From: Beijerinckiaceae bacterium
GTDB lineage: Bacteria > Pseudomonadota > Alphaproteobacteria > Rhizobiales > Beijerinckiaceae
Direction of reading: 5' to 3'
Assembly: GCA_004564215.1 (NCBI GenBank)
Contig: CP024846.1
Coordinates: 310,001 to 374,000 of the forward strand
DNA length: 64,000 bases
Shown in pieces: positions 21,027 to 29,407 of the stretch (within the stretch, counting starts at the first letter, position 1; every line of letters starts with the position of its first letter). The notes beneath the pieces are model-generated. The model had not been told where the DNA came from. It worked only from the letters and a program-made list of their open reading frames with translations, and ran no database searches. Both the position numbers and the translations under genes were made by a program.

Positions 21027-21338
21027 CTACTGCACAAATTCATAAGCGAAGGTAACGGAAACAACGGACATCACCACGAGTCCAACGATGAAGAATACAT
21101 CGGCAATCTGCTCAAGTCTGTTTCGTCCCTTTTGCGCGTAATTGTTACGCCTGATGGATGAATAGGAGCAGAGGCAGCTGATTAAAAAGCACAGGCTGTT
21201 CAAAGCAAGATATTCATCGACATGGCTGGGACCGATGTGAGCCTCGGCAATCTTAACGAGCCCTATTCCGGTCAGACATACGCCTAGCATTGTCGACGCA
21301 CTGGGAAGAATATGATGCGAAAGTTGGTCTGAGTTCAT
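21027..21338 (-). CDS. Small membrane protein of unknown function
   Basis: The 103-residue product has about three hydrophobic segments (residues 13-30, 43-57 and 80-100) and a short basic loop (RRNNYAQKGRNR). No family is recognised. Its base composition is more AT-rich than the neighbours. It is 108 bp downstream of the patatin gene on the same strand, so the two could be cotranscribed. The start ATG 21338 has only a weak ribosome site. Confidence 0.6.
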   Translation of the reverse strand: MNSDQLSHHILPSASTMLGVCLTGIGLVKIAEAHIGPSHVDEYLALNSLCFLISCLCSYSSIRRNNYAQKGRNRLEQIADVFFIVGLVVMSVVSVTFAYEFVQ

Positions 21339-21446
21339 ATTTGGCTTTGCCTACCCCAGCTCGAAATCGGACGACAAGCGACACTTGCCTCAAGCCGCGA
21401 TCCCGCTCAAGGAGGCGATCAGTCAAATCATCGAGAAAATTCGGCT

Positions 21447-23894
21447 TCAAGGAGCGCCGTTGTCCGGCGGCGACAGGCGTTGCATCAAATCAACCAAGGT
21501 CTGGCGGTTGGTTTTGTCGCAGCGCTGCACATCGATTGCGGCCTGTACCGCCGCCGCCAACCACCAGCTCAAGGAGAGTTGGCCTGTGTCGACGCTCTCC
21601 TCGGTCCAGACGTCTTTGCACTCCCGCAGGTCGCGCGGATCGGCGGAGCTTTCATACCGAAGGTCCGGCTGTGCCGCGACACTCAATTTGAAGAAATTCG
21701 AGGTGGTCCCTTCGGGGCATGAGGGATCCGCCGCCGGGTCGCAATGGACCGCGAGGGTGCGATCAGCCAGATCTTTGGCCTCGGCGCCATGGCCGTCTCT
21801 TGTGTGAAGGAGCGTTTCGAAGGGTGCCTTCAGCACTCCGAAAACGCGCGCCGCGAAATCATTGGTTGAGAGTTCGAGATAGGGTGTAACCGCCGGCCTT
21901 CGCGGAATCACGACATCCTTGATCGGTTTTTCGGGATCGTTCGCAATCGTGAGAAGGACGGGCTGAATGGAATGGGCCATCAAGGCTTGGGCGACGTCAA
22001 GCGCGGTCGAATCTCCGGAGTTTTCGAAATATCCGCCATCGACCAGGCGATCACCGAATTTCGGCTGGTCCATGACATCAAAAGCCCCAGCCGGCGAAAT
22101 GATTGGAAAGCGCGCGCTGGTCAATGCTGCTGTCGACAATAGTATGTCCGGCGCATCGAGTTCGGCTTGCGGCCCGCCCGCTTGAGTGTTGCGGTTGGGG
22201 CATGCCTGCTTCTTGACGTCGGGAGCGGCGCAGCTCGAGGACATCACCTCGAACAGATCGTAAGCTTGCGAGTAGAGTCCAAAGGGCTTGCCGGTTTTAT
22301 CCAGATAGGTCGAAGGAACGTCGGCGGCGATAATCCGGCGCCCTGTTTGAACGGATGTGGCGTTGAGAAACAGCAGCGGTAGCCAGCTCTTGTCGTCCCC
22401 GGTCGCGGCATAGAGCAACGGCAAATACCCGAATCGACGGCAAAGGCCTGTGTCTCGATCTTTCCCACAGGTCCGTCCAGTGTCCCGCCAGCGTGGATTT
22501 TCAGTAACGACATAATCATAATGCCGCTCGAAGGCCTGTTCGAGAAGAACGGCGCGGTCATCGATCACAGACGGTCCGCGGATCACCTCCCGCGCCAATG
22601 AGAAATTGTCGCGAAAACCAAGTCCGATGAAAACCGGCGAAAGATAATCGCCCGTCACGAGCGCCTGGAGGCATTCCCGCCAAGTGAAATTCCGTTGCTT
22701 GCCTTGTGCCTCATCGGCCCTGAACCAAGTCGAATGGGCGGTATGGCAAGGCGGCGTCCCTTTGGGATCCTGCATGGCATCTGCCAACGCCGCGCGGATC
22801 ACGGCGGCGCCGAGCGCCCCACCCGAAACTCCGGAAATCGCAAAGATCCGCCGTGCGGGATCCAAACGTCCCCGGCCGTGGGCAGCGGGCATACGATCAA
22901 GAATCTCGCCAACGAAGGTGGCAGCGGCAAAAGCGGCGCGGCTGGCGCCTCCGTCGATTGCGATGATCAGGGCGGGCGGACAGTCGGTCTTGTCGGCGCA
23001 ATCATTCGCGGCCTTCCATCGGTCAACAGCGCTCTTGAAATCGATTTGCCGGTTGGACAAATTCTGCGGTACCGCCGCAACAGTGCGCAGATCATTGAAA
23101 TGCTTGTTCAGGCCCGTCAAAATCAACGCGGCACCCAACGCCAACGCAAGCAGAGGAACGCCCCAGGAATTGGCGCGTCGCTGAATAAAACTTAAGATGA
23201 GGACGAGACTTCCGAACAGAAATGGAATCATAAGCGCGCGGGGAACCCACGCGACTGCGAGAACCGGATCGGCATAAGCCACGACAAAAATCAAAAAGGT
23301 TGCGACGAGCGAGCCCCAGACGAAGAGGGATTCCCATAAAGGCCCCATATTCGCTGTCATCTTCCCACGTCGGACAACGAAAATCCAAAACAGCAGCGCG
23401 ACGAAAATGTCGGTCGCCAGAAGGATTACAAGCTGCTCCAGGGTTTTCTCGCCGATCGGCAGGCCGCGCCCGATCCATTGGGTCCGCAGAGCAAAGCCAA
23501 TTCCAACAGCAAACGCCATGAAGGGAATGAGGCCGAGAACCCGGGGAACATATTTGATGAGGCCGGCATGCTCATAACGCAATTTTGTCGTGAGCGCCTC
23601 TCGTTGCTCCGCGGGGATTTCGCGACGCAGCCGCCAATTGATCAGCCACGCGTCCTTTTCCAGAGTTCGGCGCGCACCATAATGGACCGGGAAGGCCCAA
23701 AAAAAGAAGAGCGCGGCGAAAACCAGAAACCAGTAGCCGATCGCCAGCGGAAGATTTGCGTTCAGACTCACATCAGCGAAAAGGTTTTGAGCCGGAAGGG
23801 CTACATAAAAAAGCGCAAGTCCGCCAAAGGCGCTGGCGACACTGACCCGGCACGCCCAAAGCGTCCGTGCCAGCCAAACCACATGAGCCCACAT
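21447..23894 (-). CDS. Patatin-like phospholipase with seven N-terminal membrane helices
   Basis: The 815-residue protein joins a membrane half to a patatin domain. Hydrophobic segments lie at about residues 17-36, 47-70, 115-136, 151-174, 187-208, 213-237 and 243-262. The patatin domain has the oxyanion-hole sequence DGGASR (314-319), the nucleophile elbow GVSGG with Ser357, and the DGG dyad with Asp619. Patatins are Ser/Asp acyl hydrolases acting on lipids. Two insertions rich in Cys (around 470-490 and 555-570) are not usual. No CD-NTase or other defence partner is next to it, so a housekeeping lipid role is as likely. The start ATG 23894 gives MWAHVVWLAR. Confidence 0.87.
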   Translation of the reverse strand: MWAHVVWLARTLWACRVSVASAFGGLALFYVALPAQNLFADVSLNANLPLAIGYWFLVFAALFFFWAFPVHYGARRTLEKDAWLINWRLRREIPAEQREALTTKLRYEHAGLIKYVPRVLGLIPFMAFAVGIGFALRTQWIGRGLPIGEKTLEQLVILLATDIFVALLFWIFVVRRGKMTANMGPLWESLFVWGSLVATFLIFVVAYADPVLAVAWVPRALMIPFLFGSLVLILSFIQRRANSWGVPLLALALGAALILTGLNKHFNDLRTVAAVPQNLSNRQIDFKSAVDRWKAANDCADKTDCPPALIIAIDGGASRAAFAAATFVGEILDRMPAAHGRGRLDPARRIFAISGVSGGALGAAVIRAALADAMQDPKGTPPCHTAHSTWFRADEAQGKQRNFTWRECLQALVTGDYLSPVFIGLGFRDNFSLAREVIRGPSVIDDRAVLLEQAFERHYDYVVTENPRWRDTGRTCGKDRDTGLCRRFGYLPLLYAATGDDKSWLPLLFLNATSVQTGRRIIAADVPSTYLDKTGKPFGLYSQAYDLFEVMSSSCAAPDVKKQACPNRNTQAGGPQAELDAPDILLSTAALTSARFPIISPAGAFDVMDQPKFGDRLVDGGYFENSGDSTALDVAQALMAHSIQPVLLTIANDPEKPIKDVVIPRRPAVTPYLELSTNDFAARVFGVLKAPFETLLHTRDGHGAEAKDLADRTLAVHCDPAADPSCPEGTTSNFFKLSVAAQPDLRYESSADPRDLRECKDVWTEESVDTGQLSLSWWLAAAVQAAIDVQRCDKTNRQTLVDLMQRLSPPDNGAP

Positions 23895-24487
23895 GTTTCC
23901 CCCACCTGTTTCATCGACGATGCGATGTGCTCGAAATCGATGTCCCGAACCGATGTGCGCTTGGACGCAATTTACAAGGAATAAGGGTTGGCGCGTTGTT
24001 GAAATCTGGTAGGCGATGTTTGAACTATTTTCGGATGAATTTCCGCTTTTTGAAAGCTGAAACTGGTTGCTACTTCCATTCTGTTGTTCATCTCATGATA
24101 AGCGTTTGATACAATATGCGTTTGACCAAATGCCTACACGACAGCCGAGCACGCGATTGGCAGAGGGACAACGGTCAACTCCAGCTTGTGGGACAAAATG
24201 CTGATTTTTGTGAGAGGCCATTCACTCTTTCACTCCTACTCGATCGTTCCGAGCGATGATAACGCATTGATTTAAGGGGAAAACCTTTTCCGCGCATGAC
24301 GAAGAACCGCCCTCTCGATCCGTCAGAAATTTGTGCTCTTGAATTCAAAGGAAAATTTCGCCGATTCGGGATATGCTCAGTTTCAGCGACTATCGACATC
24401 GATCGGTCGATTTCGACATCTCCCGCAAAAAAGCTGTGCGATTGAATGGCTAGAAAAATACCGTCAGCCGCTCATCCCCGCCCCCTG
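23895..24487. other. AT-rich noncoding region containing a guaA 3'-end relic
   Basis: No convincing gene is seen in these 593 bases; the only long frame (24175-24399, minus) has no recognisable content and no ribosome site. The region is clearly lower in GC than its flanks. At 24230-24250 it holds a near copy of the last bases of guaA, listed separately as a likely attachment-site relic. The rest up to 24487 would be inside the inserted block. Confidence 0.55.
24230..24250. repeat. Probable att relic: direct repeat of the guaA 3' end (distal copy)
   Basis: The 21 bases match the plus strand of the guaA 3' end (29387-29407) at 19 positions; the first 18 differ at one (TCACTCCTACTCGATCGT against TCACTCCCACTCGATCGT). 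Read on the minus strand it ends in TGA like guaA, but the Trp codon TGG has become TAG. The repeat has the same orientation as guaA, as expected for attL/attR. The 3' end of guaA is a known integration site for islands. No integrase remains in between. Confidence 0.65.
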
Positions 24488-25261
24488 CTACGCGGGTTGT
24501 CCGGCAGCTTCCAGGATTAGCCGGGTGATCTCGTTGGGATGGGAGATCAGCGAAAGATGGCTTGATTTCACTTCGATGGTCTTGGCGCCCATGCGCTTGG
24601 CCATGAAGCGTTCGAGGTCCGGATTGATAGTGCGATCTTCCGTCGAAACGGCATAGAAGCTCGGTTTCGACCGCCAGGCCGCGTACGTTGTTTTGCCGGT
24701 CAGCAGGGCCTTTTGAAACGGCTCCTGGACAGCATAGAGAACCTTCGCCTTCGCTTCCGGCAGGTCGCCCGCGAAATCGCGCAGGAAGGCTACCTCGGTG
24801 AGGCGTCCTTCATCGCCGTCGAAGATGATACCGGCGGATGCCGGCGGCGTGGGATAGGTCTTGGCCAGAGCGGTGTAATCCTCGCCCGCGTCCGGCGCCC
24901 GCGCCGCCACATAAACCAGGGACGAGACCTTGGGATGCACGCCTGCCTCCGTAACGATCATGCCAGAGAAGGAATGCCCGACCAAGACTGTCGGGCCATC
25001 CTGCCGATCAAGCACGCGCTGGGCGGAGGCGACGGCTTCCGGCAGCGTCGTCAGAGGGTTCTGTACGGCGGTGGCGTTGAGCCCTGCCACCTGCAGGCGC
25101 GCGATCACCTCGGACCAGCATGATCCGTCGGCGAACAGCCCATGCACGAGGACGACGTTGCGTGCTCTGGTCGGGGCGGCAGCCATGCCGCGGGTGGAGA
25201 TCAGCGAAGCGGCGGCGCCTGCAACGAGCGCGGTCGAGATAGTACGCCTGTTCATCGTCAT
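24488..25261 (-). CDS. Exported alpha/beta hydrolase (esterase-like)
   Basis: The 257-residue protein begins MTMNRRTIST and carries a twin-arginine-like leader to about residue 28 (GMAAAP), so export is likely. The core shows VVLVHGLFADGSCW, the nucleophile elbow GHSFSG (Ser97), and SSHLSLIS with the probable catalytic His near residue 235. It resembles small esterases of the hydroxynitrile lyase/EstC type. ATG 25261 is preceded by GGAAGA; the frame is open further upstream to 25375 without a ribosome site. It is the distal gene of the accessory block bounded by the guaA repeats. The substrate is unknown. Confidence 0.88.
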   Translation of the reverse strand: MTMNRRTISTALVAGAAASLISTRGMAAAPTRARNVVLVHGLFADGSCWSEVIARLQVAGLNATAVQNPLTTLPEAVASAQRVLDRQDGPTVLVGHSFSGMIVTEAGVHPKVSSLVYVAARAPDAGEDYTALAKTYPTPPASAGIIFDGDEGRLTEVAFLRDFAGDLPEAKAKVLYAVQEPFQKALLTGKTTYAAWRSKPSFYAVSTEDRTINPDLERFMAKRMGAKTIEVKSSHLSLISHPNEITRLILEAAGQPA

Positions 25262-25495
25262 GATATGTCTTCCGTTGATTGTGAGAGGTTGTGGCGAAAT
25301 CTGTCCGCACACAGCGGCGGCGCGCCGAATGTCGACATGCTGGCGTCGCTTCGCCGTTGAATCCTCGTCCGTCATGCCGATGCAACCAGATCGCGCAGCG
25401 AATCTAAGACCGCGCTAGGATGCGGGCCGCTGTTCCCGAGGTTGACCTTTTGAAGAAAGGTCACCCCGCGATCGGGCACCATTTTTACTTCACGG

Positions 25496-27124
25496 TCAAA
25501 GCTGACGTTCGCGGGTGATTGCCCTGCTCGCCTGCTCGCCGATAATGACGCTAGGGGCCATGGTGTTAGCTAATGGAACCCGCGGCATCACGGAGGCGTC
25601 GGCGATACGGAGGCGGTCGACGCCGTAGACCTTGAGGCGGCTATCCACGACAGACATGTCGTCGTGCCCCATCTTGGCAGTGCAGCTCTGGTGCCAAATG
25701 GTCGTCACGCCGTCGCGGATAAAATTGTCCATGGCGGCAGCGTCGAGCACCGTCGGCATGACCTCTCGCTTCACGAAGCCCTGAAGCGCCTGAGCATTGC
25801 CAACCTCCCGCGCAAGCTCCACGCACCGCCGCAATGCGGTTAGATCGGCCGGATCGGAAAGGATTTGCGAATCGATCTGGATCGGATCTTCGGGTTTGGC
25901 ACCAGTCAGGCGCAGACGGCCCACGCTGTGCGGACGTAGCAGTGCCGGAAATATCCCCCAGGATCCTGCCGGAATGGTGTAGCGCCCAGCGAGTTCGGCG
26001 GTTGCGACGGGAAACTGGACCTGAAGCAACTGGATATCAGGACTGTCCAACTCCGGCGCGCTCTTCGCGAAGATGGTGGCTTCGCCTCCATTGCCATGGG
26101 GAGGCAGCGGCGCCGGATATTCCCAGACGCAGCTTGAGACCATGATGTGGTCCTGGAAGTTGGCGCCCACTCCCGGGAGACGTTGGACCAGTGGGATATC
26201 CAGGGATGCCAGCGTTTCGGCATCGCCAACGCCGGACTGCATCAGTACCTTGGGGGTCTGGATGGCACCCAGGGACAGGATCACTTCCTGCGAGGCGAGG
26301 AAGCGGTGGCTCCGACCGTCGAGGATGCACTCCAGGCCGATCGCCGCTCCCCGTTCGATGATCACGCGCGTGACCAGGGTGCCAGGCAGTACCGTCAGGT
26401 TCGGCTGGTTCATCAGCGGGAAGGTGTAGGATCGGAAGATCGACTGTCGCCGGCCGTCGCGAATGCGCAGGTTGAAGTAGGAAGCGCCCCCGGGGCCTTC
26501 CATCATGGAGCCGTTCGCATCGTCGAAGACAGGGATGCCAAGTTCGATGGCGGCGTCGAGCATCGCGGTTGCGACGGGGTGCGGTTCGATCGGAGGCGTG
26601 ATGTAAAGGAGACCATTCTGCCCGCGTCGGGCCGGATCGGGCGTACCCTGCCAGTTTTCGATCTCGCGGTAGATACCCAGAACGGAGTCATAGCTCCAGG
26701 CGGGATCGCCGGCCTGGGCGGCAAAATAATCCCAGTCGCTCTTGTGGCCGCGAGCCCAGAGCATGACGTTGATGCTCGATCCTCCCCCCAGCACCTTGCC
26801 CATGCTCATCGGGATGGCACGCCCGTTGAGGTGCGGATTGGGTAAGGCCGTGAAACCCCAGTCGCGCGCGCTGCCCAGATTCAGCGGCCACGCCGCCGCC
26901 ATTTCCACCTCGGGTGCGCTGTCGCTCCCACCGGCCTCGATCAGCAGCACCGAGACGTCCGGATTCTCAGCCAGCCGCCGCGCCACAACCGCGCCGGACG
27001 AGCCGGATCCGCATACGATAAAGTCGTAGGCGGTCCGCAAAGAGCCGCGAAGTCGAAGCTGGTTTTCTTCCACCTCGCGGGCGAATTCCGCGTCAAGACG
27101 CTCAAGAGCCGATGGTTCGCTCAT
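25496..27124 (-). CDS. GMC family oxidoreductase (choline/alcohol dehydrogenase-like)
   Basis: The 542-residue flavoenzyme has the FAD-binding start FIVCGSGSSGAVVARRL (glycines at 39-44). The first GMC signature lies around GKVLGGGSSINVMLWARGH and the second around LSLGAIQTPKVLMQSG. The C-terminal catalytic region has WHQSCTAKMG (His near 473) and MPRVPLANTMAPSVIIGEQ (Asn near 516). Such enzymes oxidise alcohols, choline or sugars with oxygen or quinone as acceptor; the substrate cannot be named here. No signal peptide is seen. The start ATG 27124 has GGAG upstream. It lies between two alpha/beta hydrolases. Confidence 0.93.
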   Translation of the reverse strand: MSEPSALERLDAEFAREVEENQLRLRGSLRTAYDFIVCGSGSSGAVVARRLAENPDVSVLLIEAGGSDSAPEVEMAAAWPLNLGSARDWGFTALPNPHLNGRAIPMSMGKVLGGGSSINVMLWARGHKSDWDYFAAQAGDPAWSYDSVLGIYREIENWQGTPDPARRGQNGLLYITPPIEPHPVATAMLDAAIELGIPVFDDANGSMMEGPGGASYFNLRIRDGRRQSIFRSYTFPLMNQPNLTVLPGTLVTRVIIERGAAIGLECILDGRSHRFLASQEVILSLGAIQTPKVLMQSGVGDAETLASLDIPLVQRLPGVGANFQDHIMVSSCVWEYPAPLPPHGNGGEATIFAKSAPELDSPDIQLLQVQFPVATAELAGRYTIPAGSWGIFPALLRPHSVGRLRLTGAKPEDPIQIDSQILSDPADLTALRRCVELAREVGNAQALQGFVKREVMPTVLDAAAMDNFIRDGVTTIWHQSCTAKMGHDDMSVVDSRLKVYGVDRLRIADASVMPRVPLANTMAPSVIIGEQASRAITRERQL

Positions 27125-27210
27125 TTGTCACTCCAAAAATGGGAGTTCCGCCTCAACCCTGACCGCCCGGCCCGGTCGCGTGGACCGGGCCGGAGTGGTG
27201 GCACTTTCGG

Positions 27211-28071
27211 CTACGCGTCGAGGAAGGTCCGGACATGGCTGACGAACACTTCATGGTGTTGGAAGGGGGCGCCGTGGCCGGAGTCGGGATAGAGGAGCAG
27301 CTGAGCGTTGCTCATAGCCTTGAACATCGCATAGGCGTTGCCCGCCGGCAGCATGGTGTCGTGGCTGCCGCTGACCACGAGGGCGGGCTGCTTGATAGCG
27401 CGCAGGATGGCGTGCTCGGGGTCAGGCGTCGCGCACCAGGTGATTAGGGCCTTGGCCTGCGGATCGGTCACGGCACTTCCGTTATCGGTGTCCCGGTCTT
27501 CCTTGCGGGCATAGACCCGGTTCAGGAACGCCTTGCCGGCGGCCTGGCTGGCGGCCGATTGGGTGAAGAACAGCGGCAGCCGCGGATCCGGCGCTTCGGT
27601 GTGGGAGAAAGCCTCCTTGAGGACTGCCAGCAGGTGCTCTTCACCGCCCTGCGGCGCGGTGCCGACGAGGATCAGCTTGCGGACAAGCGGGCCGTGGTCG
27701 ACCGCCATCAGCTGGGCAACGCAGCCGCCGAGGGAATATCCCAGCAGGTCGACCTTGGAGAAGCCGAGCAGCTCAATGAAGGTGACTGCGTCGCGGGCCA
27801 TTGCCGCAACATTGTCAGGGGTTTGGCCGGTCGAACGGCCGACGCCGGCGTTGTCGAAGGCGATCACAGGACGATCGACCGCCAGGGCGTTCACGACGGC
27901 GGGGTCCCAAGCGTCGATGTTGCCCGAGAAGTGCTGCAGCAGAACCAGCGGCGTTCCGGTCGACGGGCCGAGCTGGCGATAGGCGAAGCGGATGCCGCTG
28001 CCCTCAACGTAGCGGGTGGGCGCTGTTTCCAGCGTGGCACCCTCACGGTTCGCGGTAATGAGTTCGTTCAT
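27211..28071 (-). CDS. Alpha/beta hydrolase (haloperoxidase/lactone-hydrolase-like)
   Basis: The 286-residue cytoplasmic hydrolase has LVLLQHFSGNIDAWD (oxyanion region), DNAGVGRS, the elbow GYSLGG (Ser113), SGSHDTMLP with the acid residue, and DSGHGAPFQHHE with His. It resembles pimeloyl/chloroperoxidase-type hydrolases. ATG 28071 has an ideal AGGAGG and starts MNELITANREG; an upstream ATG at 28104 is rejected for this reason. It is 86 bp upstream of the GMC gene and 161 bp downstream of the DUF302 gene, all on one strand, so an operon is likely. Confidence 0.92.
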   Translation of the reverse strand: MNELITANREGATLETAPTRYVEGSGIRFAYRQLGPSTGTPLVLLQHFSGNIDAWDPAVVNALAVDRPVIAFDNAGVGRSTGQTPDNVAAMARDAVTFIELLGFSKVDLLGYSLGGCVAQLMAVDHGPLVRKLILVGTAPQGGEEHLLAVLKEAFSHTEAPDPRLPLFFTQSAASQAAGKAFLNRVYARKEDRDTDNGSAVTDPQAKALITWCATPDPEHAILRAIKQPALVVSGSHDTMLPAGNAYAMFKAMSNAQLLLYPDSGHGAPFQHHEVFVSHVRTFLDA

Positions 28072-28232
28072 GTCATCCTCCTGATCGCTTGGCCGCACAA
28101 TCATTGGTATCGAGGTCGACTCCTCTTTCCTCCATGCCTCCTCCTGTTCCGAAACTGTTGGCGACGTTCGTCATGAGAATCTCCGTTCGAACTATCCCTG
28201 CGTTCGCGACCCGTAGGGCGTTGCTTCCGCTG

Positions 28233-28766
28233 TCAGGCGACCGCCCCGGTTGCGAGTTCCGCCAAGGCACGGAGCTTGGCATCGAGTTTGAGAGCTGCGG
28301 CGGATACGTCTTCTTTATGCAGCCGGCTCATCAGAGACGAGGGCAGATCATAGGCCAGACAAGCCTCACCAGATGCCGTTTGGTAGATCACGACCCTTAT
28401 CGGAACGTTGAGGCCGACGGCGGGGTCGTGGGTGATCATAGTCTGAGCGATCAGCGGGTTGCCTATGATGTATGACCGTGTCTTGGCTTGCACACCCACC
28501 CTAGACATCCAGGCGCCATGGTCGTTCGTCAGAAAGCGCATGAAACCGCTTCGGCCCTCGTAGGCTCTGATGCGAGCCTCGAAATCGGTTTGGCTGGTAG
28601 CCGCGGCGACCTCACGCGGGATGATGGCGGGGTCCTCGACGCTACCCTGTTCGGCTTCAAAGGCAGCGACAACGTCCTCAAAGGAACGCTGGCTGACATG
28701 CTCACAGTGCTGAACGGTAAAGCTATCTATCATGGCTGCCTGCTCTTTGTAGGCTGGTAAGTCCAT
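28233..28766 (-). CDS. DUF302 domain protein
   Basis: The 177-residue protein matches DUF302 in its C-terminal two thirds. The core is YIIGNPLIAQTMITHDPAVGLNVPIRVVIY (about residues 98-127), followed by LAYDLPSSL. The function of DUF302 proteins is unknown; some occur with stress and redox genes. No signal peptide is present. The ATG at 28766 has GGTGAG upstream; an internal ATG at 28733 (MIDSFTVQHCEH) is an alternative. It is the first gene of the block transcribed away from the MarR regulator, so it is a likely target of that regulator. Confidence 0.88.
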   Translation of the reverse strand: MDLPAYKEQAAMIDSFTVQHCEHVSQRSFEDVVAAFEAEQGSVEDPAIIPREVAAATSQTDFEARIRAYEGRSGFMRFLTNDHGAWMSRVGVQAKTRSYIIGNPLIAQTMITHDPAVGLNVPIRVVIYQTASGEACLAYDLPSSLMSRLHKEDVSAAALKLDAKLRALAELATGAVA

Positions 28767-28806
28767 CTCACCACCCAGCGAGTCATCAGCGTCGGGCGGC
28801 GATCAG

Positions 28807-28844
28807 TTGACATAGGTGTAGATACGCTCTTATATGCGCATATA
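28807..28844 (+). promoter_or_regulatory. marR promoter with overlapping palindromic operator
   Basis: TTGACA at 28807-28812 and TATATG at 28831-28836 (18-bp spacer) form a consensus-like promoter reading into the MarR gene at 28860. The perfect 14-bp palindrome TATATGCGCATATA (28831-28844) covers the -10 box and lies 16 bp before the start codon. MarR proteins bind such dyads as dimers, so autorepression is expected. The palindrome also lies upstream of the divergent DUF302 gene. Confidence 0.7.
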
Positions 28845-28859
28845 CGCCTTCAATCGAGG

Positions 28860-29306
28860 ATGTCAAGATTGGATGATGCCGCCTTACCCGAGTTCTGCAC
28901 CTGCTTGGCGATTCGCCAGGCAGCCCGGCACGTAAGCCAGTTCTACGACCAGCATCTGGCCCGCTCGGGGCTGCGGGTAACGCAGTTCTCGATCCTCGCT
29001 AAGCTAAAGGAAGAAGGCCCGTTGACCATCAATCGTCTCGCCGAGGCGATGGTGATGGACAGGACGACCCTTGGCCGGAATATTCTGCCTCTGCAGCGAG
29101 ATGGCCTCATCGCCGTCGCTCGAAGGGTAGGCGACCGCCGGAGCAAGGAACTTCACCTTACGGACGCCGGGCTAAAGCGCCTTAGCGAGGCGTGGACCTA
29201 TTGGGCAAACGCCCAGGCTGGGTTCGACGCCGCCTTCGGCAGCCGCCAGGATTCGGAATTGCGAACGCTGATGCGAGCCGTTACGTCAACCGAGCTTGTG
29301 GTCTGA
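28860..29306 (+). CDS. MarR family transcriptional regulator
   Basis: The 148-residue protein is a MarR-type dimeric repressor. N-terminal dimer helices lead into the winged helix GLRVTQFSILAKLKEEGPLTINRLAEAM (residues about 38-66), the recognition helix DRTTLGRNILPLQRDGLI and the wing VGDRRSKELHLTDAG. Three cysteines lie near the N-terminus or in it (two in FCTCL), which could sense oxidants, though this is speculative. It is divergent from the DUF302-hydrolase-GMC-hydrolase set and separated from it by 93 bp containing a palindromic operator. It ends 80 bp before the guaA stop. Confidence 0.93.
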   Translation: MSRLDDAALPEFCTCLAIRQAARHVSQFYDQHLARSGLRVTQFSILAKLKEEGPLTINRLAEAMVMDRTTLGRNILPLQRDGLIAVARRVGDRRSKELHLTDAGLKRLSEAWTYWANAQAGFDAAFGSRQDSELRTLMRAVTSTELVV

Positions 29307-29386
29307 TGACTATCGAGAACTTTCGCACAGCGACACTTGCCGACTCTACGCGGCAATATCCTAACCCTACCCTGCAGTACACCCCC

Positions 29387-29407
29387 TCACTCCCACTCGA
29401 TCGTGCC
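29387..29407. repeat. Probable att site within the guaA 3' end (proximal copy)
   Basis: These 21 bases include the last codons and stop of guaA and recur, with two mismatches, in the same orientation at 24230-24250. The 5.1 kb between the copies contains only accessory genes. This is the arrangement left when an element integrates at the guaA 3' end and restores the gene. Confidence 0.65.

Follow-up and report, generated by a model that had tools for sequence, protein, structure and literature searches.

Introduction

The 3′ end of guaA is an integration site for mobile elements, described with the core sequence GAGTGGGA for, e.g., GIsul2 (PMC9376610). Mobilizable elements that target guaA are treated in PMC5704250, together with the concept of the cis-mobilizable element (CIME), in which the attachment (att) sites are kept and the genes for integration and transfer are lost. 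Integrative and conjugative elements (ICEs) and tripartite ICEs integrated at guaA are described in Mesorhizobium (PMC8627217), and PMC10386936 describes a catabolic island located downstream of this gene, citing Song et al. 2012 on guaA islands. Here, we analyse a stretch of 64,000 nucleotides (bases 310001–374000; referred to as the window) from the single-contig genome of a Beijerinckiaceae bacterium (3,326,434 bases; referred to as G000), in which a block of accessory genes at 24230–29404, lying between the 3′ end of guaA and a distal repeat of it, is very probably the remnant of an integrative element. Mesorhizobium belongs to the same order of bacteria as this genome, and the guaA-specific integrase of its ICEs is IntG.

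With the GIsul2-type guaA islands and ICEs described in PMC9376610, the locus shares the insertion at the guaA 3′ end, the core GAGTGGGA and att-type sites on both sides, but it lacks an integrase and transfer genes, and its distal core reads GAGTAGGA. The Mesorhizobium ICEs use the same target gene, but are described with integrase and conjugation genes (PMC8627217). As in the CIMEs of PMC5704250, both att-type sites appear to be kept, the integrase is absent and cargo is retained. However, a CIME is cis-mobilizable by definition, whereas the present block, its distal core being mutated, may be dead. An earlier, sequence-only reading of the window had named the guaA 3′ end as a known integration target, in agreement with the published core (PMC9376610).

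The guaA 3′ end and its distal repeat

The last 18 bases of guaA (29387..29404, minus strand; TCACTCCCACTCGATCGT) constitute the guaA-side copy of the core, or attL-type site, and recur on the same strand and in the same orientation 5.1 kb downstream of guaA, with one mismatch, at 24230..24247 (minus strand; TCACTCCTACTCGATCGT), the distal copy or attR-type site. Read in the sense of guaA, the distal copy is GAGTAGGAGTGA and the guaA end GAGTGGGAGTGA, and the mismatch falls within GAGTGGGA. This repeat had been the starting point of the sequence-only reading, and it proved to be real: in the whole genome the 24230 site is the only other copy of the core at up to two mismatches (two more appear at three), and in the window these two matches stand alone at up to three mismatches, with 0.03 expected from shuffles. 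The likeness stretches weakly to 28 bases (82%). Because some of the 20 direct-repeat families listed for the region are equally long or longer, yet less alike over the core, what sets the repeat apart is where it lies, at guaA, and how closely it matches, not how long it is. The core is thus found both at the guaA 3′ end and at a distal end, as in guaA genomic islands, and attL- and attR-type sites are both kept, as in CIMEs, the attR-type core with its one mismatch.

Directly inside the distal repeat lies a conserved element arm (24248..24283, minus strand; roughly ATTCAAnnnGTTA), which the sequence-only reading had missed and which, with identical spacing, accompanies the majority of the distal guaA repeats examined in other genomes. 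The arm was first spotted by eye and tested afterwards, by aligning eleven distal repeats on the core and taking the 30 bases inside the repeat at positions –36 to –7. Over these bases G000 is identical to G001c at 21 of 30 positions and to G035 at 19, at least 19 being reached at a random frequency of 5e-6 (200,000 draws). Upon leave-one-out scoring against null pools that contain the arms themselves (as do those of the new-site test below), G000 ranked top of the 11 sites with a score of 20.4 that none of 20,000 random 30-mers matched; eight other sites reached p ≤ 0.00015, and that of G009 was weak (p = 0.005).

A 54-position profile of arm and core was then trained on nine sites, leaving out G000 as well as G047, which was dropped after failing the arm scoring. 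Five of the nine come from genomes with an integrase beside guaA (G003, G009, G011, G031 and G039), the guaA and distal site of G039 sitting on different contigs. This profile gave the 24230 site a score of 46.6 (44.6 with G047 kept in). The second-best place in the window reached 15.4, and no score above 14.1 arose in 40 shuffled windows; in the loci from L037 on all places above 21 were training sites or the G000 site. For the new-site test, 21 further core copies were sorted before scoring into six candidate ends and 15 controls far from guaA, and the arm alone was scored. Three of the six candidates were positive, each beating 20,000 random stretches, namely those in G033 (83 kb downstream of guaA), G014 (94 kb from guaA, in opposite orientation) and G019 (on another contig), and the arm was found at none of the 15 controls (lowest p 0.029). 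The presence of the arm at candidate ends and not at far core copies links it to guaA-type element ends rather than to the core as such, and it may constitute an integrase binding site.

On the guaA side, the spacer at 29307..29386 was compared with 134 other loci, some genomes being included twice. Over its first ~30 bases past the guaA stop, G035 came closest (score 28, against at most 26 in 380 null draws), a likeness that is only suggestive because 134 comparisons were made, and no integrase-bearing locus among the 134 stood out as alike. A second type of conserved stretch past the guaA stop (AAGGTCGTTTCAGACCATC...) was seen at L123, L048 and L089, which are the guaA locus of G011 and two guaA loci of other relatives.

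Integrases and repeat pairs at guaA in relatives

Integrases, core copies and the arrangement of guaA and der were surveyed in 60 genomes, G000 included. By eye, six relatives carry an integrase-like gene directly after guaA; these genes are mutually alike, and the one scanned, that of G011, comprises the Pfam domains Arm-DNA-bind_3 and Phage_integrase. With the integrase protein of G014 as query, nine of the 60 genomes (G002, G003, G009, G011, G014, G019, G031, G032 and G039; partial in G002 and G003) yielded a match at E ≤ 1.4e-60, in every case at most 0.6 kb from the guaA 3′ end; the weaker matches listed (E ≥ 5.8e-55) are all more than 100 kb from guaA or on a different contig. The guaA-type integrases for which the sequence-only reading had suggested a search in relatives are present beside guaA, but the cargo of the present block was not seen in any of the guaA islands that bear an integrase. 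In G000 no site-specific integrase adjoins guaA, as one does in guaA genomic islands, and the genome has no integrase of the guaA-linked clade at E ≤ 1e-30, other families not having been sought genome-wide.

Extra core copies were matched to guaA positions by hand (same contig, up to 100 kb), and since many of the genomes are in contigs, repeat pairs may have been missed. Ten extra copies, spread over nine of the 60 genomes (G000, G001 twice, G003, G009, G011, G031, G033, G035 and G047), share the orientation of guaA and are located on its downstream side. No copy of that orientation lies upstream over the same distance, and a single copy, in G014 at 94 kb, has the opposite orientation. Four of the repeat-pair genomes (G003, with a partial gene, G009, G011 and G031) carry the integrase, and the remaining five have none of this clade beside guaA; in these four the distal arms match (weakly for G009), and the guaA-side bases are unlike those of G000. 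The clearest intact comparator is G011, with guaA, integrase, a MobA/MobL relaxase, type I restriction-modification genes, the distal repeat, tpr and der in this order.

A number of further sites were observed in these genomes. The G033 end (L201, G033:C1:2479942-2479959) is a perfect core copy with arm, guaA's own end not being among the matches. In G014, a second guaA-type integrase (L171:7329-8573; 98% identical) lies ~58 kb from guaA, and the opposite-orientation core copy with arm is found at L204 (G014:C3:1367698-1367715); the two seem to reflect an inverted or tandem element. G001 bears a relic of the guaA end with arm (L169:2881-2898; G001:C1:188880-188897), 156 kb from guaA and 49 bases before its match to orf21027 (see below), possibly as part of a very large or composite guaA island. 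In G023, an open reading frame (ORF) with an FRG domain (L127:12553-14574) has at its start, in frame, a degraded guaA C-terminus that agrees with the end of guaA at 36 of 45 bases (26 in the best of 30 shuffles), so that an element scar seems to have been fused to a downstream gene. Before tpr, sites at one mismatch to the degenerate core occur in G001 and G011 only, among 16 loci, and core hits at four mismatches are roughly as frequent there as expected by chance (74 in 3.79 million shuffled strand-bases).

The guaA–der interval

The nearest relative, G007, has the guaA (88%) and der (91%) most similar to those of G000, and its order is guaA, 137 bases, a match to orf21027 that holds one stop, tpr and der. 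In the window, orf21027 (21027..21338, minus strand) lies beyond the distal repeat. Positions compared by hand showed that 14 of the 60 genomes (G000, G007, G011, G018, G022, G023, G024, G026, G031, G040, G050, G053, G054 and G055) have der on the strand of guaA and no more than 35 kb downstream of it, with a tpr match in between in all except G040; in the other 46, der is elsewhere or on another contig, or guaA or der was not found. The interval spans ~0.8 kb (G018), 1.4 kb (G007), 9.3 kb (G000), 18 kb (G011), 28 kb (G031) and ~30 kb (G023), and this wide variation points to repeated insertion there.

The empty junction predicted by the sequence-only reading, in which guaA would be joined directly to the sequence at about 24200, was not observed in any relative examined, because G007 also lacks the patatin-like gene that lies just beyond the distal repeat in the window. 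The G007 spacer between guaA and orf21027 showed no significant likeness to either G000 spacer (p = 0.96 and 0.18).

Genes between the repeats and their occurrence elsewhere

Pfam confirmed the gene content given by the sequence-only reading. A MarR-family regulator (28860..29306, plus strand; PF01047; 86% in G009, 79% in G084) is divergent to an operon on the minus strand, which consists of a DUF302 protein (28233..28766; PF03625; 89% in G009, partial match in G084), an alpha/beta hydrolase (27211..28104; PF00561; 90% in G023, 85% in G009, 82% in G084), a GMC oxidoreductase (25496..27124; PF00732/PF05199; 87–89% in G009, G023 and G084) and, as its last gene, another alpha/beta hydrolase (24488..25375; PF12697; 86% in G084, with an 81% remnant of 27 residues in G023). 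Save for short gaps, the longest of ~240 bases, these five genes fill the repeat-bounded stretch, and as expected for a CIME there is no integrase or transfer gene among them (Pfam; small ORFs in the gaps were left unscanned). From the domain names, one might guess at a MarR-regulated pathway of oxidation and hydrolysis.

At E ≤ 1e-220, two of 397 genomes from the order match the GMC gene, and at E ≤ 1e-150 three of 36 relatives do (G000 included in both); in the latter search, likeness is no more than 49–57% for the G039 match and for two additional G009 copies. G023 was not among the matches listed in either search, and was found through its guaA neighbourhood. Among plasmids (E ≤ 1e-100), GMC homologues occur in 130 records, none of them reaching 60% identity.

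Four of the five genes occur in the same order in G009, ~110 kb from guaA and on the flank opposite its guaA island. In G084 all five are matched at a distance of 380 kb from guaA; DUF302 is matched only in part, with ~4 kb of other genes coming after it, and one more hydrolase-like match (36%) lies between. In G023 the GMC and hydrolase genes stand within the guaA–der interval, inverted relative to guaA, with the remnant of the last hydrolase nearer guaA. The DNA of the shared block is 83–86% identical, compared with 77–78% for guaA in the same pairs; in the G000–G023 pair the cargo reaches 86%, guaA 77% and der, compared in this pair only, 74%. Cargo that is more alike between genera than housekeeping genes points to horizontal transfer, and its location away from guaA in G009 and G084 indicates that it has also moved independently. 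The sequence-only reading had held that the same block at another site in relatives would speak against a scar; such placement is found in G009 and G084, but it shows the cargo to be mobile and not the repeat pair to be accidental.

The stretch outside the repeat pair

Between the distal repeat and orf21027 lies the patatin-like gene (21447..23894, minus strand; Pfam match below the curated cut-off), which the sequence-only reading had also missed. It is without a match in 12 of 14 other genomes of the genus, G007 among them; G013 has a 59% homologue elsewhere and G010 weak matches. Across the family, matches at E ≤ 1e-120 occur in 15 of 397 genomes, G000 included. The patatin-like gene is accessory too, be it through separate acquisition, as an older remnant or by loss in G007.

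A third, outer attachment site was looked for near orf21027 and 21340 but gained no support: the best gapped match had p = 0.215, and the arm-core profile found none there. The null windows of this comparison were drawn from loci with guaA ends and p values alone were used, since the printed null maxima (44 and 48) are probably real guaA ends.

A probable island remnant at guaA

Taken together, we consider it highly probable that 24230–29404 is what is left of an integrative element, inserted at the guaA 3′ end, whose integrase and transfer genes have since been lost. This reading builds on both repeats, the arm, the guaA-linked integrases of relatives, integrase-bearing islands bracketed by the same repeats, the near-empty site of G007 and the lack of a clade integrase in G000, and it upholds the island scar of the sequence-only reading, but with its junction unseen and its cargo also found elsewhere. 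A tyrosine-recombinase crossover at the guaA 3′ end would have inserted the element, the guaA-side repeat representing its attL-type site and 24230–24283 an attR-type site in which the inner arm, presumably bound by the integrase, is still recognisable. The cargo would have arrived together with the integrase, and later loss of integrase and transfer genes would have left the MarR-linked operon (DUF302, hydrolase, GMC oxidoreductase, hydrolase) behind. The integrase behind such a scar may have been of the guaA-linked clade or of another type, no integrase-bearing locus having stood out as alike on the guaA side. The block would best be filed as an island remnant resembling a CIME, and guaA remnants of this sort seem to be an already known kind.

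Several observations weigh against such a remnant. In none of the relatives examined does guaA run directly into the sequence immediately below 24230, and searching the window for integrase fragments with the integrases of six relatives as queries yielded noise only (best E 0.048). The guaA-side bases resemble only G035, which is without an integrase of the guaA-linked clade, and that likeness is itself weak. Moreover, the arm fails at the G047 repeat pair (leave-one-out p = 0.107), a pair that may itself be due to chance or to another element, as well as at G032 and at one of two G035 C28 copies, the other being marginal (p ~0.015); by eye, both C28 copies seem shifted by one or two bases. 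Finally, cargo that is off guaA in two genomes and inverted in G023 could have entered by another route.

This last point leads to a variant in which the guaA scar is real, but the present cargo arrived later, by homologous recombination or on another mobile element, and replaced the original contents. The operon at non-guaA sites in G009 and G084, the two inverted genes in the guaA–der interval of G023 and the lack of an integrase remnant in the window would all fit such a replacement. However, none of the eight proteins scanned in and around the block is a transposase, and the five genes occupy the repeat-bounded stretch almost completely. We regard later arrival as rather unlikely, although as a variant it overlaps in probability with the remnant favoured above. 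About equally unlikely, and likewise overlapping with that remnant, is a composite in which an older guaA element (21339–24229, with the patatin-like gene) was pushed outward by a younger one (24230–29404). The absence of the patatin-like gene from most of the genus, the tandem relics in G001 and the stepwise accretion on decayed elements described in PMC5704250 agree with such a composite, but a second distal site near 21340 could not be found. A chance repeat without any element, as might be suspected from a repeat of only 18 bases with a mismatch in its distal core, is hardly conceivable given its genome-wide rarity, the shuffle expectation and the leave-one-out result, and is already contradicted by the arm profile.

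More tentatively, and with somewhat less than even confidence, we propose that the arm is the binding signature of the guaA-integrase clade in this order, by which integrase-less scars can be recognised, and that the DUF302–hydrolase–GMC oxidoreductase–hydrolase operon has landed repeatedly, and in different genera, in such scars as well as elsewhere. A single 18-base repeat hereby becomes a testable attachment site, and the arm motif offers a means of finding further guaA scars that lack an integrase. Accessory metabolic operons can in this way remain behind when the mobile machinery decays.

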